Shown piece by piece: positions 53,606 through 59,810 of a stretch of DNA of 64,000 bases. Made by a program: the position numbers and the translations under genes. The notes beneath the pieces are model-generated. The model saw nothing but the letters and a program-made list of their open reading frames with translations, did no database searches and had not been told where the DNA came from. The first letter of the stretch is position 1; each line of letters starts with the position of its first letter. Source of the DNA: Candidatus Bathyarchaeota archaeon A05DMB-2 (GTDB lineage: Archaea > Thermoproteota > Bathyarchaeia > Bathyarchaeales > Bathycorpusculaceae); assembly GCA_018475625.1 (NCBI GenBank), contig JAAKEZ010000001.1:186001-250000 (forward strand), written 5' to 3'.

Positions 53606-54526
53606 ATGAACAAAGTCAAGCTAACCGACAAAATCCTCCAACTTAAAAAAGAGAAAAAAGCCCTAATCTTAGCACATAATTATCAGCGTCCAGAAATCCA
53701 AGACATAGCCGACTACATCGGCGACAGCATCGAGCTAAGCCGCAAAGCCATGCTGGAGAAAGATGCGGAAACCCTTGTCTTCTGTGCAGTGGATTTTATG
53801 GCGGAATCCGCCGCGATTCTGAACCCCGAAAAAAAAGTGCTTCTGCCCACGCTGGGCGCACGTTGCCCAATGGCGCAGATGCTTACGGTTGACGAGATAA
53901 AACGCGCCAAAACCCATTACCCAGACGCGCCTGTGGTGCTTTACGTGAACACTTTAGCCACGTCTAAGGCTTACTGCGACATCTGCTGCACCAGCGCCAA
54001 CGTCGTGGAAGTCATCAACTCATTGGATGCTGACACCATATTGTTCGGTCCCGACCGCAACCTCGCGGAGTACGCTGCGGAAAAGACCGGAAAAACACTC
54101 ATCCCAATCCCCGAGTGGGGCTTCTGCCCAACTCATGTGCTCTTTCAGCCTGAAGATATAGCCGTGCTCAAACAGCAGTATCCCGACGCAGTCGTGATGG
54201 TTCACCCCGAATGCAGCGCCGAAACGCGGAGGGCAGCGGATTTCGTGGGTAGCACATCCAAGATGTGCCATTACGCGCGCGAAAGCACCGCCGAAACAAT
54301 CATCGTCGGCACTGAAGAAGGGCTTCTGCACCGATTGCGCAAAGAGAATCCTGAGAAACGGTTTATCGTGGCATATGAGGGCGCTGTGTGTCCCAACATG
54401 AAGTTGACCACGCTTGAAAGACTATATGCCGCATTGAAAGAGGAAAAACACGTGATCAAGGTTCCAGAAGCCACAGCCAAACACGCCAGAACCGCACTGG
54501 AAAAGATGTTTCTCGTGAAGAGCTAA
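53606..54526 (+). CDS. nadA: Quinolinate synthase NadA
   Basis: About 306 residues from ATG 53606 (a longer frame opens at 53570). HNYQRPEIQDIADYIGDSIELSRKA near the N-terminus, a GARCPMAQ block near 86-93, YVNTLATSKAYCDICCTSANV near 112-132, GPDRNLAEYAA near 144-154, HPECSAETRRAADFVGSTSKM near 197-217 and EGAVCPNMKLTTLERLYAALK near 261-281 are NadA signatures. They include the [4Fe-4S]-ligand Cys residues. It condenses iminoaspartate with DHAP to quinolinate for NAD. No nadB or nadC is adjacent. Its end overlaps nikR tail to tail by 4 bp. Confidence 0.93.
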   Translation: MNKVKLTDKILQLKKEKKALILAHNYQRPEIQDIADYIGDSIELSRKAMLEKDAETLVFCAVDFMAESAAILNPEKKVLLPTLGARCPMAQMLTVDEIKRAKTHYPDAPVVLYVNTLATSKAYCDICCTSANVVEVINSLDADTILFGPDRNLAEYAAEKTGKTLIPIPEWGFCPTHVLFQPEDIAVLKQQYPDAVVMVHPECSAETRRAADFVGSTSKMCHYARESTAETIIVGTEEGLLHRLRKENPEKRFIVAYEGAVCPNMKLTTLERLYAALKEEKHVIKVPEATAKHARTALEKMFLVKS

Positions 54527-54927
54527 ACTGAAACTATCATTGCTTTGAGAATTTTCACGCCTCTTTTAGTGGTTAACTCGTCGCTTAGCTTCCGAATCTC
54601 AGAAGCTTTGCCCTTCACCGCAATCGCCTCTAAACAGTCTCGTTCGCTAAGGTGGATGTGCAGGGTGGATGAGACTAAATTGCTGTGGTGATGCTGCGCC
54701 TCGGTTAACTCGTGCTCCAAGCCTCTGGCTTCGTGGTCGTACACCATCAGCAAAACGCCTGTCTGGTTGCCTTCTTCTTTCAGCCACTTACGTTCGGAAA
54801 CGTACATGCGCACAGCGTCTTGGATGGCTTTGCTGCGGCTTTCGTAGCCCATTTCGTGGATGATTTCGTCGAATTCTTTCAGTAGGTCTGGCGGAAACGT
54901 TACGCCTACACGGATGATTTTTGACAT
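54523..54927 (-). CDS. nikR: Nickel-responsive regulator NikR
   Basis: About 134 residues from the ATG of MSKIIRVGVTFPPDLL (a GTG nine bases upstream is also in frame). The N-terminal ribbon-helix-helix (residues 2-45) has IIRVGVTFPPDLLKEFDEII and YESRSKAIQDAVR. The C-terminal ACT-like domain carries the high-affinity nickel set with E. coli spacing: H79, H90, H92 and C98 (TLHIHLSERDC), equivalent to H76, H87, H89 and C95. It is a nickel-loaded repressor or activator. It lies next to the lar genes and near the operator-like palindromes at 58.3-59.3 kb. Confidence 0.92.
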   Translation of the reverse strand: MSKIIRVGVTFPPDLLKEFDEIIHEMGYESRSKAIQDAVRMYVSERKWLKEEGNQTGVLLMVYDHEARGLEHELTEAQHHHSNLVSSTLHIHLSERDCLEAIAVKGKASEIRKLSDELTTKRGVKILKAMIVSV

Positions 54928-54977
54928 AAGGCTCACGGGTAAAAATGGATTAATGCACCTAAAAGCTTTTATGTGCT

Positions 54978-55009
54978 AAGTAGCATTAAAATACACAAAA
55001 GTGTTACCA
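54978..55009. promoter_or_regulatory. Weak candidate NikR operator upstream of nikR
   Basis: AAGTAGCAT-N14-GTGTTACCA, with the same 32-bp frame as the three stronger sites downstream but only about half of the half-site positions symmetrical. It sits in the promoter region of nikR, so autoregulation is possible. It could be chance. Confidence 0.3.
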
Positions 55010-55045
55010 GAAAAGTGGAACTGCATCTCACAATAAACTACAACT

Positions 55046-55891
55046 TTAGCGAGAGTCCGCGGTATCTATTGTAAGAAGCATACTTCCTGTTCGGTATCCC
55101 TCCAAGTCAAGCGTCACATATTTAAAACCTATCCTTTTCAAGTCATCGGCTATCCTGTCCAGAATTTCAACGGTGAAAACGAGTTTTCTCTCATTTTTTC
55201 CAACTTCTATTCTGGCCAACCCATTATGGTCTCTAACTCGAAGTTGCTGGGCCCCCGTTATTTTCTTCACTGCTTGCTCTGCTTTCCCAATTCTGTCCAA
55301 TTTCTCGGCTGTAATCCGTTCATAGTATGGTAACCTTGAGGCTAAACATGCTAAAGGCGGTTTGTTCTGAATAGAAAGCCCCATGCTTCTAGCTATTGCC
55401 CGAATCTCCTCTTTTGAGAATCGAGTGTCAACCCACGGGCTATATACGTTTTCCATTTCTTTGACAGCTTTAAAGCCTGGTCTATGATCAGTTAAATCGC
55501 TGATGTTTGTGCCCTCAAAAACCACTTTGAACCCAAGTTCCTTTGCTATTTTTTGTAAGCGCTCCAGAAGTTCTTTTTTGCAGTAATAACACCGGTTTTC
55601 AGGGTTTTTAATGAAATTTTCATTTGACAGTTCATCAGTCTCTACTACGTATAGTTTGATGCCTATTTCCTTCGCCACCTTTTTTGCTTCCTCCAACTCT
55701 TCAGGTGGATACGTCGGAGATGTTGCAGTTACAGCTACCACTCTATCTCCTAAAATATTGTAACTTACAGCCGCTAGTGTTGAACTATCGAGACCGCCGG
55801 AAAAGGCAATCACTACGCCGTCTTTTCCTTTTGTCTCGATGTAGCGTTTCAACTTTTCGTATTTTCTTTTTTGGGAGTTCATGAGAATCAC
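55046..55891 (-). CDS. larE: Pyridinium-3,5-biscarboxylic acid mononucleotide sulfurtransferase LarE
   Basis: 281 residues from a GTG whose last bases overlap the larC stop (GTGA); an ATG at 55882 is also possible. PP-loop SGGLDSS (31-37), CYYC (C101 and C104) and PPLACLASRLPYY with C182. C182 matches the sacrificial Cys of the Lactiplantibacillus enzyme, while C101 and C104 add the pair found in the [4Fe-4S]-type LarE that can act catalytically. It converts the carboxylates of the P2CMN intermediate to thiocarboxylates. Together with larC it forms an operon transcribed away from larB. Confidence 0.92.
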   Translation of the reverse strand: MILMNSQKRKYEKLKRYIETKGKDGVVIAFSGGLDSSTLAAVSYNILGDRVVAVTATSPTYPPEELEEAKKVAKEIGIKLYVVETDELSNENFIKNPENRCYYCKKELLERLQKIAKELGFKVVFEGTNISDLTDHRPGFKAVKEMENVYSPWVDTRFSKEEIRAIARSMGLSIQNKPPLACLASRLPYYERITAEKLDRIGKAEQAVKKITGAQQLRVRDHNGLARIEVGKNERKLVFTVEILDRIADDLKRIGFKYVTLDLEGYRTGSMLLTIDTADSR

Positions 55892-57138
55892 TCTCTCAAC
55901 AAAATCTCTCTAGCTCGCAGTTTAACCAATTCTGTAATTTCCCTCAGAGGCTTGCCTGTTTTATCTGCCAGTCTCTTCATTTCATCATATTCAGGTTTGA
56001 TATGAACAATCTTGCCTCTCCTGTCTTTAGCAACTTTCACCTTCACAATCTCTTTTGCATTATTGATTTGCACAGTTACCGAAAACAATTCACGACTAAG
56101 GATGTATCTTTTGCACGGGTACATCCTAACTCCTAAAGTGCCTGTTTCTTCAATAACGACCCGCAAAAGGCGTTTGGCGTCTTTTTGATCCGCCACTATT
56201 TTGATAATTTGACCAGGTCTATTCTTTTTTGTGAACATTGGAATAATGTTCACGTCCTTGGCACCTTCCTGCAAAAGCCTATCAACCAAGTACCCAATGA
56301 TTTCTCCTGTTACGTCGTCGACGTTTGTTTCTAAAATAACGATTTCATCTGTTAGAAGCCAATTGTCCACAGGCTTACCTACTGTAATACGCAAAACATT
56401 AGGCATTTCTTTGAAATCCTTGTTTCCTGCCCCATAACCCACCTTTAGCGGGGTTATCTCTGGATAGAACCGACTAACTTCATCAGCTAAGTTAACCAAA
56501 ATGGATGCTCCTGTTGGTGTAGTTAGTTCTGATTCGATGGGCCCGCCCATCATTGGAAAATTCTTCGATGCCAGTATCTCTAAGGTTGCTGGTGCTGGGC
56601 TACACACTGTGCCATGCGAGAACGTGAATAAGCCGCCGCCAACTGAAACAGGCGTTGCATATATTTTAGCATTGAACATCTGAAGATTGTCCAAAGCAAC
56701 TGCAGCACCGACAATTTCTGCTATTGTGTCCACAAATCCTACTTCATGTAGATGTGTTTCGGATGAATCACTTGCATGAAGCTTCGCCTCGGAATTAACT
56801 AAAGTGCGGATAACCTTGGACGCGAATTGCCTCGCCTTCTCAGAAAGCTCCAAGTGCTTTGCGCTTTTTTCAACGATATCTATGAGTTCGCTACCTGTTT
56901 TTCTAGAAGCACTTTCAGCTGTGACATCAATTTTAGTCGCCTTGAACTCTCTTCGCATTACTTGTTTTATGTCGATTTTGATGTTTTTGTAGCCGTAAGC
57001 CTGTTTTTCCAAAGATTTTATGGCAGAAGTAATCTTGTTGACATCAGCGCCTAAGTCTATTAGCGCGCCAAGGAACATGTCTCCAGAAATTCCAGCGACT
57101 TGGCAATCAATAACAAGTATTTTATCAAATTCCGACAT
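55888..57138 (-). CDS. larC: Nickel insertion protein LarC
   Basis: 416 residues from the ATG of MSEFDKILVIDCQVAGISGDM at 57138 (AGGTGG 8 bases upstream); a longer in-frame start at 57180 is not supported. VAGISGDMFLGALIDLGAD near 14-32, HLHEVGFVDTIAEIVGAA, TPVSVGGG, FSHGTVCSPAPATLEIL and ELTTPTGASIL are LarC blocks. ILETNVDDVTGEIIGYL is the nickel-insertase core. LarC is one continuous frame here, unlike the split LarC1/LarC2 of Lactiplantibacillus. It inserts Ni into the pincer nucleotide using CTP. Confidence 0.93.
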   Translation of the reverse strand: MSEFDKILVIDCQVAGISGDMFLGALIDLGADVNKITSAIKSLEKQAYGYKNIKIDIKQVMRREFKATKIDVTAESASRKTGSELIDIVEKSAKHLELSEKARQFASKVIRTLVNSEAKLHASDSSETHLHEVGFVDTIAEIVGAAVALDNLQMFNAKIYATPVSVGGGLFTFSHGTVCSPAPATLEILASKNFPMMGGPIESELTTPTGASILVNLADEVSRFYPEITPLKVGYGAGNKDFKEMPNVLRITVGKPVDNWLLTDEIVILETNVDDVTGEIIGYLVDRLLQEGAKDVNIIPMFTKKNRPGQIIKIVADQKDAKRLLRVVIEETGTLGVRMYPCKRYILSRELFSVTVQINNAKEIVKVKVAKDRRGKIVHIKPEYDEMKRLADKTGKPLREITELVKLRAREILLRE

Positions 57139-57221
57139 TACATTGCCACCTGATAATTTGGTATGGAAAAGCAAGCACAAATGATATATTGGTTGTGGTC
57201 TTCAGAAAATAGAGTAGAAAA

Positions 57222-58010
57222 ATGTACACTTTGAAGGAAATCTTTGAGAAGCTTTTGAAAAGCGAGATAACGGTTGCTGAAGCTGAAAAGTCGGTGAAAC
57301 TGCTGGCGATAGATGAAGTTCAAAACATGACGAAAATTGACACTAACAGAGAATGTAGAAAGGGCATACCTGAAATCATTCTCGCTGAAGGTAAAACTAC
57401 CGCAGATCTTGTAAACATATCGCTTCGGATATTGTCAGAGAAAGGCAGGGTAATAATAAGCCGATGTGACGCAAAACAGCTGCGCGCCCTGAAGAAAGCT
57501 GCTCCGAAAGAGGCTGTTCTGCAAGTTTACGACAAAGCCAAGATGATTGTTATAAAAACGAAAACTTTTGTCATCAGATCTAATGGTGGAAAGATCGGGC
57601 TTTTAACTGCTGGAACATCCGATATTCCTGTGGCTGAAGAGGCAAAGGTACTTGCTGAAGAGATGGGCTGTACAGTTTTCGCTGCATATGATGTGGGTGT
57701 AGCGGGAATCCACAGGGTAATGCAGCCCCTGAAAGAATTTATAGAGAAAGATGTTGACGTTATCATAGTGGTTGCAGGCAGAGAAGGCGCATTATCCTCG
57801 GTTGTAGCTGGCATGGTTGATGTGCCCGTGATTGCAGTTCCAACTTCGAATAGTTACGGCTTCGGTGAGAAAGGAGTAAGCACGCTAATGGCAATGCTTC
57901 AGTCTTGCTCATTGGGCTCGGCTGTTGTTAACATTGATGGTGGAGTTGCAGCAGGTGCAATAGCTACTTTAATTGCCAACCGCGCAGCAAAATTCAGAAA
58001 CACGGCATAA
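57222..58010 (+). CDS. larB: Nicotinic acid adenine dinucleotide carboxylase/hydrolase LarB
   Basis: 262 residues. The N-terminal ~80 residues are helical and specific to LarB. The C-terminal domain is PurE-like, with LTAGTSDIPVAEEA near 127-140, VVAGREGALSSVVAGMVDVPVIAVPTSNSYG near 184-214 and NIDGGVAAGAIATLIANRAA near 237-256. It carboxylates NaAD and splits it, the first step to the nickel-pincer cofactor. It is divergent from larC with ~80 bp between starts and a TATA-like ATATATTGG in the spacer. Confidence 0.93.
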   Translation: MYTLKEIFEKLLKSEITVAEAEKSVKLLAIDEVQNMTKIDTNRECRKGIPEIILAEGKTTADLVNISLRILSEKGRVIISRCDAKQLRALKKAAPKEAVLQVYDKAKMIVIKTKTFVIRSNGGKIGLLTAGTSDIPVAEEAKVLAEEMGCTVFAAYDVGVAGIHRVMQPLKEFIEKDVDVIIVVAGREGALSSVVAGMVDVPVIAVPTSNSYGFGEKGVSTLMAMLQSCSLGSAVVNIDGGVAAGAIATLIANRAAKFRNTA

Positions 58011-58020
58011 CTCGACGTTT

Positions 58021-58263
58021 TTAACTTATGCTTTCCGATAAAAAAATTAATCGAGACCTCAACAAGTCAACAAGCTTTCCTGTATCTTCAATGTAGGCGA
58101 GTATGATATTCAAATCTTTTTCACTGGTTTTTCGTATTGCGAAATTGAATTTCGCGCTTGCGGTTATTAGTGCAAGCTCTTCTTTAATGTTCTCGAACAT
58201 CTTCGTTAGTTCTCTTTCTTTTAATTGTGCGCGTTCAAACCAAGCGTTATCCTTTTCTATCAT
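58021..58263 (-). CDS. Small helical protein under a candidate NikR operator
   Basis: 80 residues, all charged or amphipathic helix with no TM and no Cys. There is one His-free core, AWFERAQLKERELTKMFENIKEELALITASAKFN, followed by a Leu-rich second half. The start ATG lies 10 bp from a 32-bp palindrome that overlaps the TATA-like ATTATTAAAA of its promoter. The family is not recognised. Its position in the nickel locus suggests a regulated accessory protein; the function is unknown. Confidence 0.6.
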   Translation of the reverse strand: MIEKDNAWFERAQLKERELTKMFENIKEELALITASAKFNFAIRKTSEKDLNIILAYIEDTGKLVDLLRSRLIFLSESIS

Positions 58264-58272
58264 TCAATATCA

Positions 58273-58304
58273 CAGTAACACGATTTTTAATAATAGTATT
58301 ACTC
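58273..58304. promoter_or_regulatory. Candidate NikR operator, site 1
   Basis: CAGTAACAC-N14-GTATTACTC. The outer halves match GAGTAATAC in 7 of 9 positions. The central spacer (TTTTTAATAATA-rich) is the TATA region of the minus-strand gene starting at 58263. The 32-bp span and N14 spacing equal those of sites 2 and 3. Confidence 0.6.
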
Positions 58305-58446
58305 GACTTATTTAAGCTTTGCAACACACCTCTCACTAACACTATTTTCACCTTTTACTGCCGCTTGATATGCTTAAATCAGATCAACTGCAGCAGCATA
58401 ATACCAAAAAAGAAGAAAAGAAACTGAAATTAACTTCTAATCGCAA

Positions 58447-58746
58447 CTATGGTCGATTTCGCTTAAATATAATGTGTTTAGGGTCTTTGAGTAACAAAGC
58501 ACCCTCCCACACTGCAAGTCCAACGACGACCATAATGCCGCTGAGAACTGCTGCTTCAGTTGACACTTCAAAGAATTCTCCGCCACCTTCCATCAAGAAA
58601 GGCACTACGTGATCAACAAGCACCATTATTGTTGTTCCCCAGAATATTAGGCTGAGATACTTCAGTAGGTACTTGTCGTTCTCAGCTTGAGTATACCATA
58701 TTGCAGTAGCGATTGTCGCAGCGAATGCAAGCATTATCAACCACAT
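58447..58746 (-). CDS. Small membrane protein A of a divergent pair in the nickel locus
   Basis: 99 residues. There are TM helices at ~2-18, 28-47 and 66-87. The motif FWGTTIMVLVDHVVPF (residues 35-50) has W36, G37, D45 and H46, the same arrangement as in the divergent neighbour (W40, G41, E49, H50), so the two look homologous. The acidic-His pair inside a helix could bind a metal ion. GGAGG lies 7 bases upstream of the ATG. It is transcribed divergently from 58823 across candidate site 2. I do not recognise the family. A role in nickel transport or sensing is inference from location. Confidence 0.65.
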   Translation of the reverse strand: MWLIMLAFAATIATAIWYTQAENDKYLLKYLSLIFWGTTIMVLVDHVVPFLMEGGGEFFEVSTEAAVLSGIMVVVGLAVWEGALLLKDPKHIIFKRNRP

Positions 58747-58773
58747 ATGTTTGCCTCCGGCATGCTTATTAGT

Positions 58774-58805
58774 GAGTGTTACGATATTTAAATTTAGTGA
58801 TACTC
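58774..58805. promoter_or_regulatory. Candidate NikR operator, site 2 (shared by a divergent pair)
   Basis: GAGTGTTAC-N14-GTGATACTC, symmetrical in 7 of 9 positions, with a central TATTTAAATTTA that contains a TATA-like core usable on both strands. It lies between the ribosome binding sites of the divergent genes starting at 58746 and 58823. Confidence 0.65.
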
Positions 58806-58822
58806 GAAGGAGGTTAGACGAA

Positions 58823-59200
58823 ATGGCTTGTTTCCTGTTACCAATGGCTATAGGAATAGTGACGACAATTTTGCAACTAGCAACTAGACACAGTGGTTTA
58901 TCTGAAAAACTGAAACTGAACTGGTTAAATGCAATGTTGTGGGGCGGAGTTGCGTTGCTTGCTGCTGAACATGTCTTTCACGGCGAAATAACCGCTTTCC
59001 CACCGTACCTGACCGCTATGGCTTCACCTGCTGATACAGCTGTTATGCTGGCTGAGATCGCCAGTATTGGTGGGTCAATGAGTTTGGCTATAGCTGGCAC
59101 TTGGGTAGGAATGCTTGCAGTGTCCACACTGATGACAAAGAAACTCGCATTCAAAGATCAGTTAAGCCCACTCAGCAAACCACTAACAACAAGAACATAA
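58823..59200 (+). CDS. Small membrane protein B of a divergent pair in the nickel locus
   Basis: 125 residues from ATG 58823, with a very strong AAGGAGG nine bases upstream; the frame is open from 58751 but crosses the operator. There are TM helices at ~3-20, 36-52 and 74-104. LWGGVALLAAEHVFHGEI (39-56) carries W40, G41, E49, H50 and H53, matching the WG-x7-[DE]H motif of protein A. The C-terminal tail is polar and basic. The pair may form a heteromeric complex. The function is unknown; nickel regulation is inferred from site 2. Confidence 0.65.
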   Translation: MACFLLPMAIGIVTTILQLATRHSGLSEKLKLNWLNAMLWGGVALLAAEHVFHGEITAFPPYLTAMASPADTAVMLAEIASIGGSMSLAIAGTWVGMLAVSTLMTKKLAFKDQLSPLSKPLTTRT

Positions 59201-59264
59201 ACCGTCAAAAAATGAAGGACGATTCAAATCGCCCTTTTTTCGCCAATCTGGAAACCTTTAATAA

Positions 59265-59296
59265 TTGTAATACTCACAATCTAAAAAGTATTACTT
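59265..59296. promoter_or_regulatory. Candidate NikR operator, site 3
   Basis: TTGTAATAC-N14-GTATTACTT, the most symmetrical copy (7 core bases GTAATAC/GTATTAC perfect). It lies 11 bp before the ATG of the decayed cbiM gene, where a repressor of nickel uptake would be expected. Confidence 0.65.
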
Positions 59297-59306
59297 AGGC
59301 ATAAAC

Positions 59307-59695
59307 ATGCACAATCCAGACGGACTAATAAACCCACAAAACCCAGCAAACATCGCAACCGCCGCAACTATGTGGCTTATATCCATCCCATTCTTCGTCT
59401 GGTCTTGGAAAAAGCCAAAGGCACCTATTCCAGCTCCATAACCGCGTTGCTCGCAGTTCCAAGCGCCTTTGTATTTGTTGCACAAATCCTCAATTTCCCC
59501 ATTGCATTCGGCACAAGTGGGCACTTAGTTGGCGGCACTTTCCTACCCGTGCTTCTGGGACCTTACACAGCTATTCTCAGCATACCATCGTGCTGCTGAT
59601 GCAGGCGTTTTTCTTTCACTGAAGGCGGTATAGCCGCTTTCGGCATGAACGTCTTCAACACGGCGATAATCGGTGGACTAAGCTTCTTCCTGTAG
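59307..59695 (+). pseudogene. cbiM: Decayed CbiM/NikM nickel-cobalt transporter component
   Basis: The first frame starts MHNPDGLINPQ, the metal-binding N-terminus of CbiM/NikM (MHxPDG), and stops at 59441. Family sequence continues in a second frame (ALLAVPSAFVFVAQILNFP, GTSGHLVGGTFLPVLLGPY, up to ~59580), then a third (TIVLLMQAFFFH, 59584-59619) and back again (EGGIAAFGMNVFNTAIIGG, to a stop at 59693-59695). At least three frame changes, and the C-terminal helices are missing. The ATPase and CbiQ partners are not adjacent. It is probably a relic of an ECF nickel transporter whose promoter site persists. Confidence 0.8.
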
Positions 59696-59810
59696 CTACC
59701 TCTTTTTCTGATTTTGCTAAACACCCCTCCGCCTTATTTAAAGGCGGGAAAATGCCGTTTAGGATGCAATAGTATTTTTAGAAGTGGCGCAGTTTACTCT
59801 ATGAACTGTC

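Follow-up and report, generated by a model that had tools for sequence, protein, structure and literature searches.

The window analysed here, a stretch of 64,000 nucleotides from the genome of Candidatus Bathyarchaeota archaeon A05DMB-2, carries three similar repeats, each made of two half-sites separated by 14 bp, and raises the question of which regulator recognises them and which genes are thereby placed under its control. An earlier note on this DNA had read them as matching palindromes serving as operators of the nickel regulator NikR. To our knowledge, metal regulation in uncultured archaea such as the Bathyarchaeia is almost unknown. The present analysis supports the NikR-operator reading: the sites track NikR across genomes, sit in the promoters of one class of nikR genes (type A) and match a published half-site. 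The three repeats are predicted with high confidence to be the sites of a nickel-responsive repressor NikR, encoded 3.3-4.3 kb away.

The repeats were found exactly where the earlier note had placed them. The scores given below are those of a weight matrix trained only on sites from other genomes and applied to the 64-kb window, in which the three repeats occupy the top three ranks.

58273-58304, unstranded: predicted NikR operator 1, CAGTAACAC-N14-GTATTACTC, ahead of the gene for an 80-residue protein; matrix score 23.6; orthologous site in a genome of the same genus (L099:6469).
58774-58805, unstranded: predicted NikR operator 2, GAGTGTTAC-N14-GTGATACTC, between divergent membrane-protein genes; matrix score 20.6; of 14 loci compared in four archaeal lineages, 13 have a site at this place.
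59265-59296, unstranded: predicted NikR operator 3, TTGTAATAC-N14-GTATTACTT, ahead of a cbiM remnant; matrix score 25.1; the same site precedes an intact cbiM (223 aa) in the same-genus genome (L099).

All three share an architecture of 9 bp, 14 bp and 9 bp, and their core, GTRWYAC-N14-GTRWYAC, begins at 58275, 58776 and 59267, respectively. The 7-bp half-site GTRWYAC is its own reverse complement, and the half-site centres are 21 bp, or two helical turns, apart, a distance that fits a NikR tetramer whose two ribbon-helix-helix dimers occupy one half-site each. The consensus proposed earlier, GTAAyAC-N14-GTrTTAC, was right in its spacer and too narrow in its half-sites, operator 2 departing from it at three positions, and GTRWYAC is the better notation. 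The three sequences are indeed repeats, of which operator 2 is an imperfect palindrome.

The candidate regulator and the genes around the operators are as follows.

54523-54936, minus strand: nikR (type A), ribbon-helix-helix and NikR_C domains, complete His3-Cys nickel site.
54980-55007, unstranded: weaker predicted NikR operator in the nikR promoter, GTAGCAT-N14-GTGTTAC, two mismatches; matrix score 10.5.
55046-55891, minus strand: larE, sulfur transferase of the nickel-pincer cofactor (TIGR00268, 294 bits).
55888-57138, minus strand: larC, nickel insertion (PF01969; LarC1 and LarC2).
57222-58010, plus strand: larB (NF033503, 235 bits).
58021-58263, minus strand: gene of the 80-residue protein, a family recurring behind NikR operators.
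58447-58746, minus strand: 99-residue membrane protein of the divergent pair, conserved D45-H46.
58823-59200, plus strand: 125-residue membrane protein of the divergent pair, conserved E-H-V-x-H motif.
59307-59696, plus strand: cbiM remnant, with two 1-nt deletions and one insertion against a relative, and its 3' part lost.

The cluster runs in the order nadA (plus strand), nikR, larE and larC (minus), larB (plus), the 80-residue gene (minus), the divergent membrane pair and the cbiM remnant. The window NikR matched PF08753 (E=7.7e-27) and, also above cut-off, PF01402 and the NCBIfam models NF002169 and NF003381 (nickel responsive regulator). The earlier claim of a complete nickel site is borne out by alignment with 1q5v, in which all four residues of the square-planar His3-Cys site of the E. 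coli protein (H76, H87, H89 and C95) are matched; the nearest solved structure is that of Pyrococcus horikoshii NikR (PDB 2bj1). The site in the promoter of nikR itself had been missed by the first reading; its counterpart is kept in the same-genus genome (L099:3179), and its position points to autoregulation.

The nickel-pincer cofactor is the product of the lar genes; for those adjoining nikR, no NikR site of their own was found in the 64-kb window with either the pattern or the matrix. Together with a Lar_N (LarA-type) protein encoded elsewhere in the genome (C37:289365), [NiFe]-hydrogenase-type large subunits and a second, intact CbiM, these genes indicate that the organism needs nickel. 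As a separate observation, the presence of nikR beside larE, larC and larB (54523-58010) and of the Lar_N protein elsewhere suggests synthesis of the nickel-pincer cofactor in a Bathyarchaeon.

The placement of the repeats between a promoter and a start codon, as supposed earlier, was confirmed, an archaeal TATA box preceding each of the three.

58307-58320, minus strand: AAAGCTTAAATAAG, BRE/TATA box for the 80-residue gene, immediately ahead of operator 1.
58764-58772, plus strand: GCTTATTAG, TATA-like sequence for the membrane gene on the plus strand, ahead of operator 2.
59252-59264, plus strand: AAACCTTTAATAA, BRE/TATA box for cbiM, immediately ahead of operator 3.

Of the 53 promoters in which no more than 20 bp separate site and start codon, 72% have a BRE/TATA box of the type AAAGYTTTTATA at a distance of 10-20 bp ahead of the site, compared with 4% of shuffled upstream sequences. 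With the box just upstream, the operator covers the region of the predicted transcription start. Conservation extends to the spacer of operator 2, TATTTAAATTTA, in which the TATA box of the minus-strand membrane gene probably lies. A TATA box within the operator spacer was also considered as a general rule and ruled out by the upstream position of the box in the majority given above; the minus-strand gene of the membrane pair is the only one with an apparent in-spacer box.

The genes behind the operators include families that have so far carried no name. The 80-residue protein is helical with a conserved YIEDT motif, and its nine homologs, in nine genomes, each lie directly behind a site. The two proteins of the divergent pair are small, homologous and served by one shared operator; neither the 99-residue nor the 125-residue protein had a match in Pfam or NCBIfam, and their predicted structures are helical at low confidence (pLDDT 62 and 59). 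The 99-residue protein was detected by a scan in Bathyarchaeota, Candidatus Hecatella, Caldarchaeales/Aigarchaeota (Terraquivivens) and Methanomethylicota, a result that also assigns the window to Bathyarchaeota. Of its 14 loci, 12 carry the operator upstream at the expected place as a perfect N14 site and one with a single mismatch, the last having none. The earlier naming of cbiM as a target holds in the family, where a site precedes this gene in 24 genomes, and requires correction in the window, where cbiM is a frameshifted remnant. Operator 3 itself is intact ahead of the remnant, whose state may reflect recent decay or, as regards the indels, errors of assembly.

Elsewhere in the genome, the other perfect site (contig C102:5511-5538) lies 67 bp ahead of a CooC-like ATPase gene, in an operon that continues with a FecB binding protein, an O-methyltransferase, a FecCD permease and an ABC ATPase (L005:594-5443), and a one-mismatch site (C43:16616-16643) precedes an S-component-like membrane gene. 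The O-methyltransferase in the CooC-like/Fec operon hints at a metallophore. The predicted regulon of this organism would comprise nikR, the 80-residue gene, the membrane pair, the cbiM remnant, the CooC-like/Fec-type ABC operon and the S-component-like membrane gene.

By analogy with the NikR family, control of these genes would take the form of nickel-dependent repression. When nickel is plentiful, the NikR tetramer would bind four Ni(II) and swing its two ribbon-helix-helix dimers to one side, one for each half-site, and the operator-bound protein would block the recruitment or the start of RNA polymerase; when nickel is scarce, the sites would be free and the uptake genes transcribed. It is unlikely, though worth weighing, that this NikR acts partly as an activator, or for cobalt, rather than as a plain repressor of nickel uptake. 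Some genes are activated by Helicobacter pylori NikR (PMC9860126), and cobalt or cobalamin are also possible cargoes of CbiM and the Fec-type transporters; however, a site that lies past the TATA box and over the region of the predicted start suits repression, the targets include the NicO nickel permease and the CooC-like gene, and the nickel-cofactor genes of the lar cluster adjoin nikR.

The distribution of the sites was surveyed in 91 genomes of the family to which the window belongs, 77 with NikR_C and 14 without. In the NikR-bearing genomes the sites numbered 152 and the matches to a control pattern 36, whereas the NikR-less genomes gave four and eight, respectively (Fisher p=8e-4 for the association of site and NikR); by spacer length, there were 156 sites with N14, 11 with N13 and eight with N15. 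Gene context was counted for 150 distinct sites read in their loci: 22 lie inside genes of at least 150 aa and 104 ahead of ten recurring gene families, most of them for nickel or metal uptake, an outcome of the proposed scan of relatives that favours the NikR reading. Besides cbiM, these families are nikR (28 genomes), S-component-like proteins (18), the binding proteins and ATPases of Fec type (about 15 and 10, respectively), the families of the 80-residue protein (9) and of the membrane pair (7), cooC-like genes and the NicO high-affinity nickel permease (4 each) and a methyltransferase (2); conservation ahead of nickel-uptake genes in relatives is thus seen for cbiM, NicO and the Fec-type genes. 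Other families of the same order had 30 sites in 20 genomes against three control matches. Beyond the order the signal is patchy, many NikR-bearing genomes having no motif although NikR_C is common.

The symmetry of the half-sites lets them be arranged outward, inward or directly, and all three arrangements are seen. Their use varies with the target: Fec-type binding-protein promoters have inward sites in 22 of 25 cases and cbiM, nikR and NicO never do, for which lineage may be the reason. In divergent promoters of Fec-type binding-protein and ABC-ATPase genes, two NikR operators were observed exactly 37 bp apart (L108:3800-3864, L114:2552-2616, L116, L147, L150 and L153).

Several NikR types, A, B, C and D, exist in this family. 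The DNA-reading strand of type A is R-V-G-V-T; its Arg corresponds to Arg3 of E. coli NikR, where NikR-B has Ile. A perfect site was present in 31 of 62 type-A nikR promoters and a site with one or two mismatches in four more, about half being without a clear site. None of the 47 promoters of types B, C and D had a perfect GTRWYAC site, and the best match in 27 NikR-B promoters had 3-5 mismatches. Type B has instead a motif of its own, TTATTAA-N14-TTAATAA, perfect in 21 of the 27 promoters and with one mismatch in two more, and four of five type D promoters carry it as well; across the family it gave 29 matches against 10 for the control, 25 of the 29 being in type B or D promoters. The placement of this motif between nikR-B and a divergently transcribed gene for ZIP or ZnuA suggests that types B and D regulate the uptake of zinc; a NikR homolog beside ZnuABC/ZupT in Methanothermobacter was already suspected to be zinc-responsive (PMC3087415). 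Type C nikR promoters (L184-L196) show a different recurring signal, roughly TTAGTGCTAA followed by ATATTAAT.

The genome studied here has a NikR-B of its own, on contig C43.

L006:10635-10662: candidate operator of NikR-B, TTATTAA-N14-TTAATAA, separating its gene from the divergent one.
L006:10699-11085: NikR-B gene; the divergent gene encodes a ZIP transporter.

This protein has a NikR_C domain whose ligand set is intact, a one-mismatch site accompanies an S-component-like gene 2 kb from it (L006), and inward-facing sites are commoner in NikR-B genomes (27:24 vs 4:47, p=9e-7), all of which could make it, and not the window NikR, the binder of operators 1-3. We consider this very improbable, as the 27 NikR-B promoters use their own motif, GTRWYAC sites are present in many genomes having type A alone, and the Arg3-equivalent residue differs between the two proteins. 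The separate motif of NikR-B tells the paralogs apart and allows the window operators to be assigned to the window NikR. Inward half-sites as the binding code of NikR-B had been suggested by the co-occurrence and were ruled out by the motif of the NikR-B promoters.

Perfect matches to GTRWYAC-N14-GTRWYAC number four in the 2.48-Mb genome, against one for the reversed control pattern; all four lie ahead of recurring genes instead of being spread at random, and three of them, operators 1-3, are clustered within 1.02 kb. The matrix places the nikR-promoter site fourth in the 64-kb window, the fifth-ranked site scoring only 3.8, and none of 20 Markov-shuffled windows gave a score of 10.5 or more. 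When two mismatches or fewer are allowed, matches to the pattern in the whole genome do not outnumber those to the control (131 vs 256); the evidence was therefore limited to perfect or contextually supported sites, the weaker site of the nikR promoter being admitted on its position and conservation. Operators 1-3 are not chance occurrences. That the repeats arose by chance or as a by-product of AT-rich archaeal promoters, as the AT-rich spacers and the count with mismatches might suggest, is refuted by the spacing and co-occurrence tests and hardly deserves credence, since the roughly fourfold excess of perfect sites over control is found exclusively at N14 and exclusively in NikR-bearing genomes, and the sites recur at homologous promoters.

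For the operator word there is a precedent in bacterial NikR. Delta-proteobacterial operators have the form GTGTTAC-[N13/14]-GTAACAC, reversed in Desulfotalea psychrophila as GTAACAC-[N13]-GTGTTAC (PMC545781). They share with the present set the 7-bp half-site, the spacing class, both of these half-site orientations and the position ahead of nikMQO-type nickel transporters, but belong to bacterial promoters and use N13 more often, whereas the archaeal sites stand with BRE/TATA boxes at strictly N14, include direct orientations and serve different targets. The H. pylori consensus (PMC5385501) is a TRWYA dyad with a 15-nt spacer and a centre-to-centre distance of 20 nt; GTRWYAC contains TRWYA as its core and the centres are likewise two helical turns apart, while in the archaeon the outer G and C are fixed, the centres are 21 bp apart and the targets are far fewer. 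The E. coli operator, GTATGA-N16-TCATAC (PMC7055735), shares the outer GT...AC bases and two widely spaced half-sites, and differs in the inner half-site bases and in serving one target operon; the nickel-dependent repression of uptake by E. coli NikR is the behaviour to which that predicted from sequence in the archaeon is likened. In the literature searched, no description of a Bathyarchaeia NikR regulon was found (a study of methanogen NikR sites from 2006 exists), and, as far as searched, novelty lies in the regulon of the archaeon, with its unnamed members, and in the strict geometry and deep conservation that it shows.

On balance, we favour a broader picture in which the Bathyarchaeia possess parallel metal sensors of the NikR family that share one operator geometry, two half-sites with a 14-bp spacer, and use different half-site words: type A would read GTRWYAC for nickel uptake, and types B and D would read TTATTAA/TTAATAA for zinc uptake (ZIP, ZnuA) as zinc-responsive NikR, the specificity coming from three residues of the DNA-reading strand (Arg-x-Gly/Ser-x-Thr vs Ile-x-Ser-x-Ser). 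Two families without a name until now would belong to the nickel regulon: that of the 80-residue protein and that of the divergent membrane pair, the latter with an operator kept from Bathyarchaeia through to Caldarchaeales and Methanomethylicota. Dozens of related archaea have the same predicted switch ahead of their nickel genes, and a reliable operator allows nickel genes to be called from sequence alone; it names the membrane pair, the 80-residue protein and the S-component-like protein as new candidate nickel proteins. Types A and B further provide a test case of how one repressor fold may be re-aimed by a few residues from nickel to apparent zinc operators.
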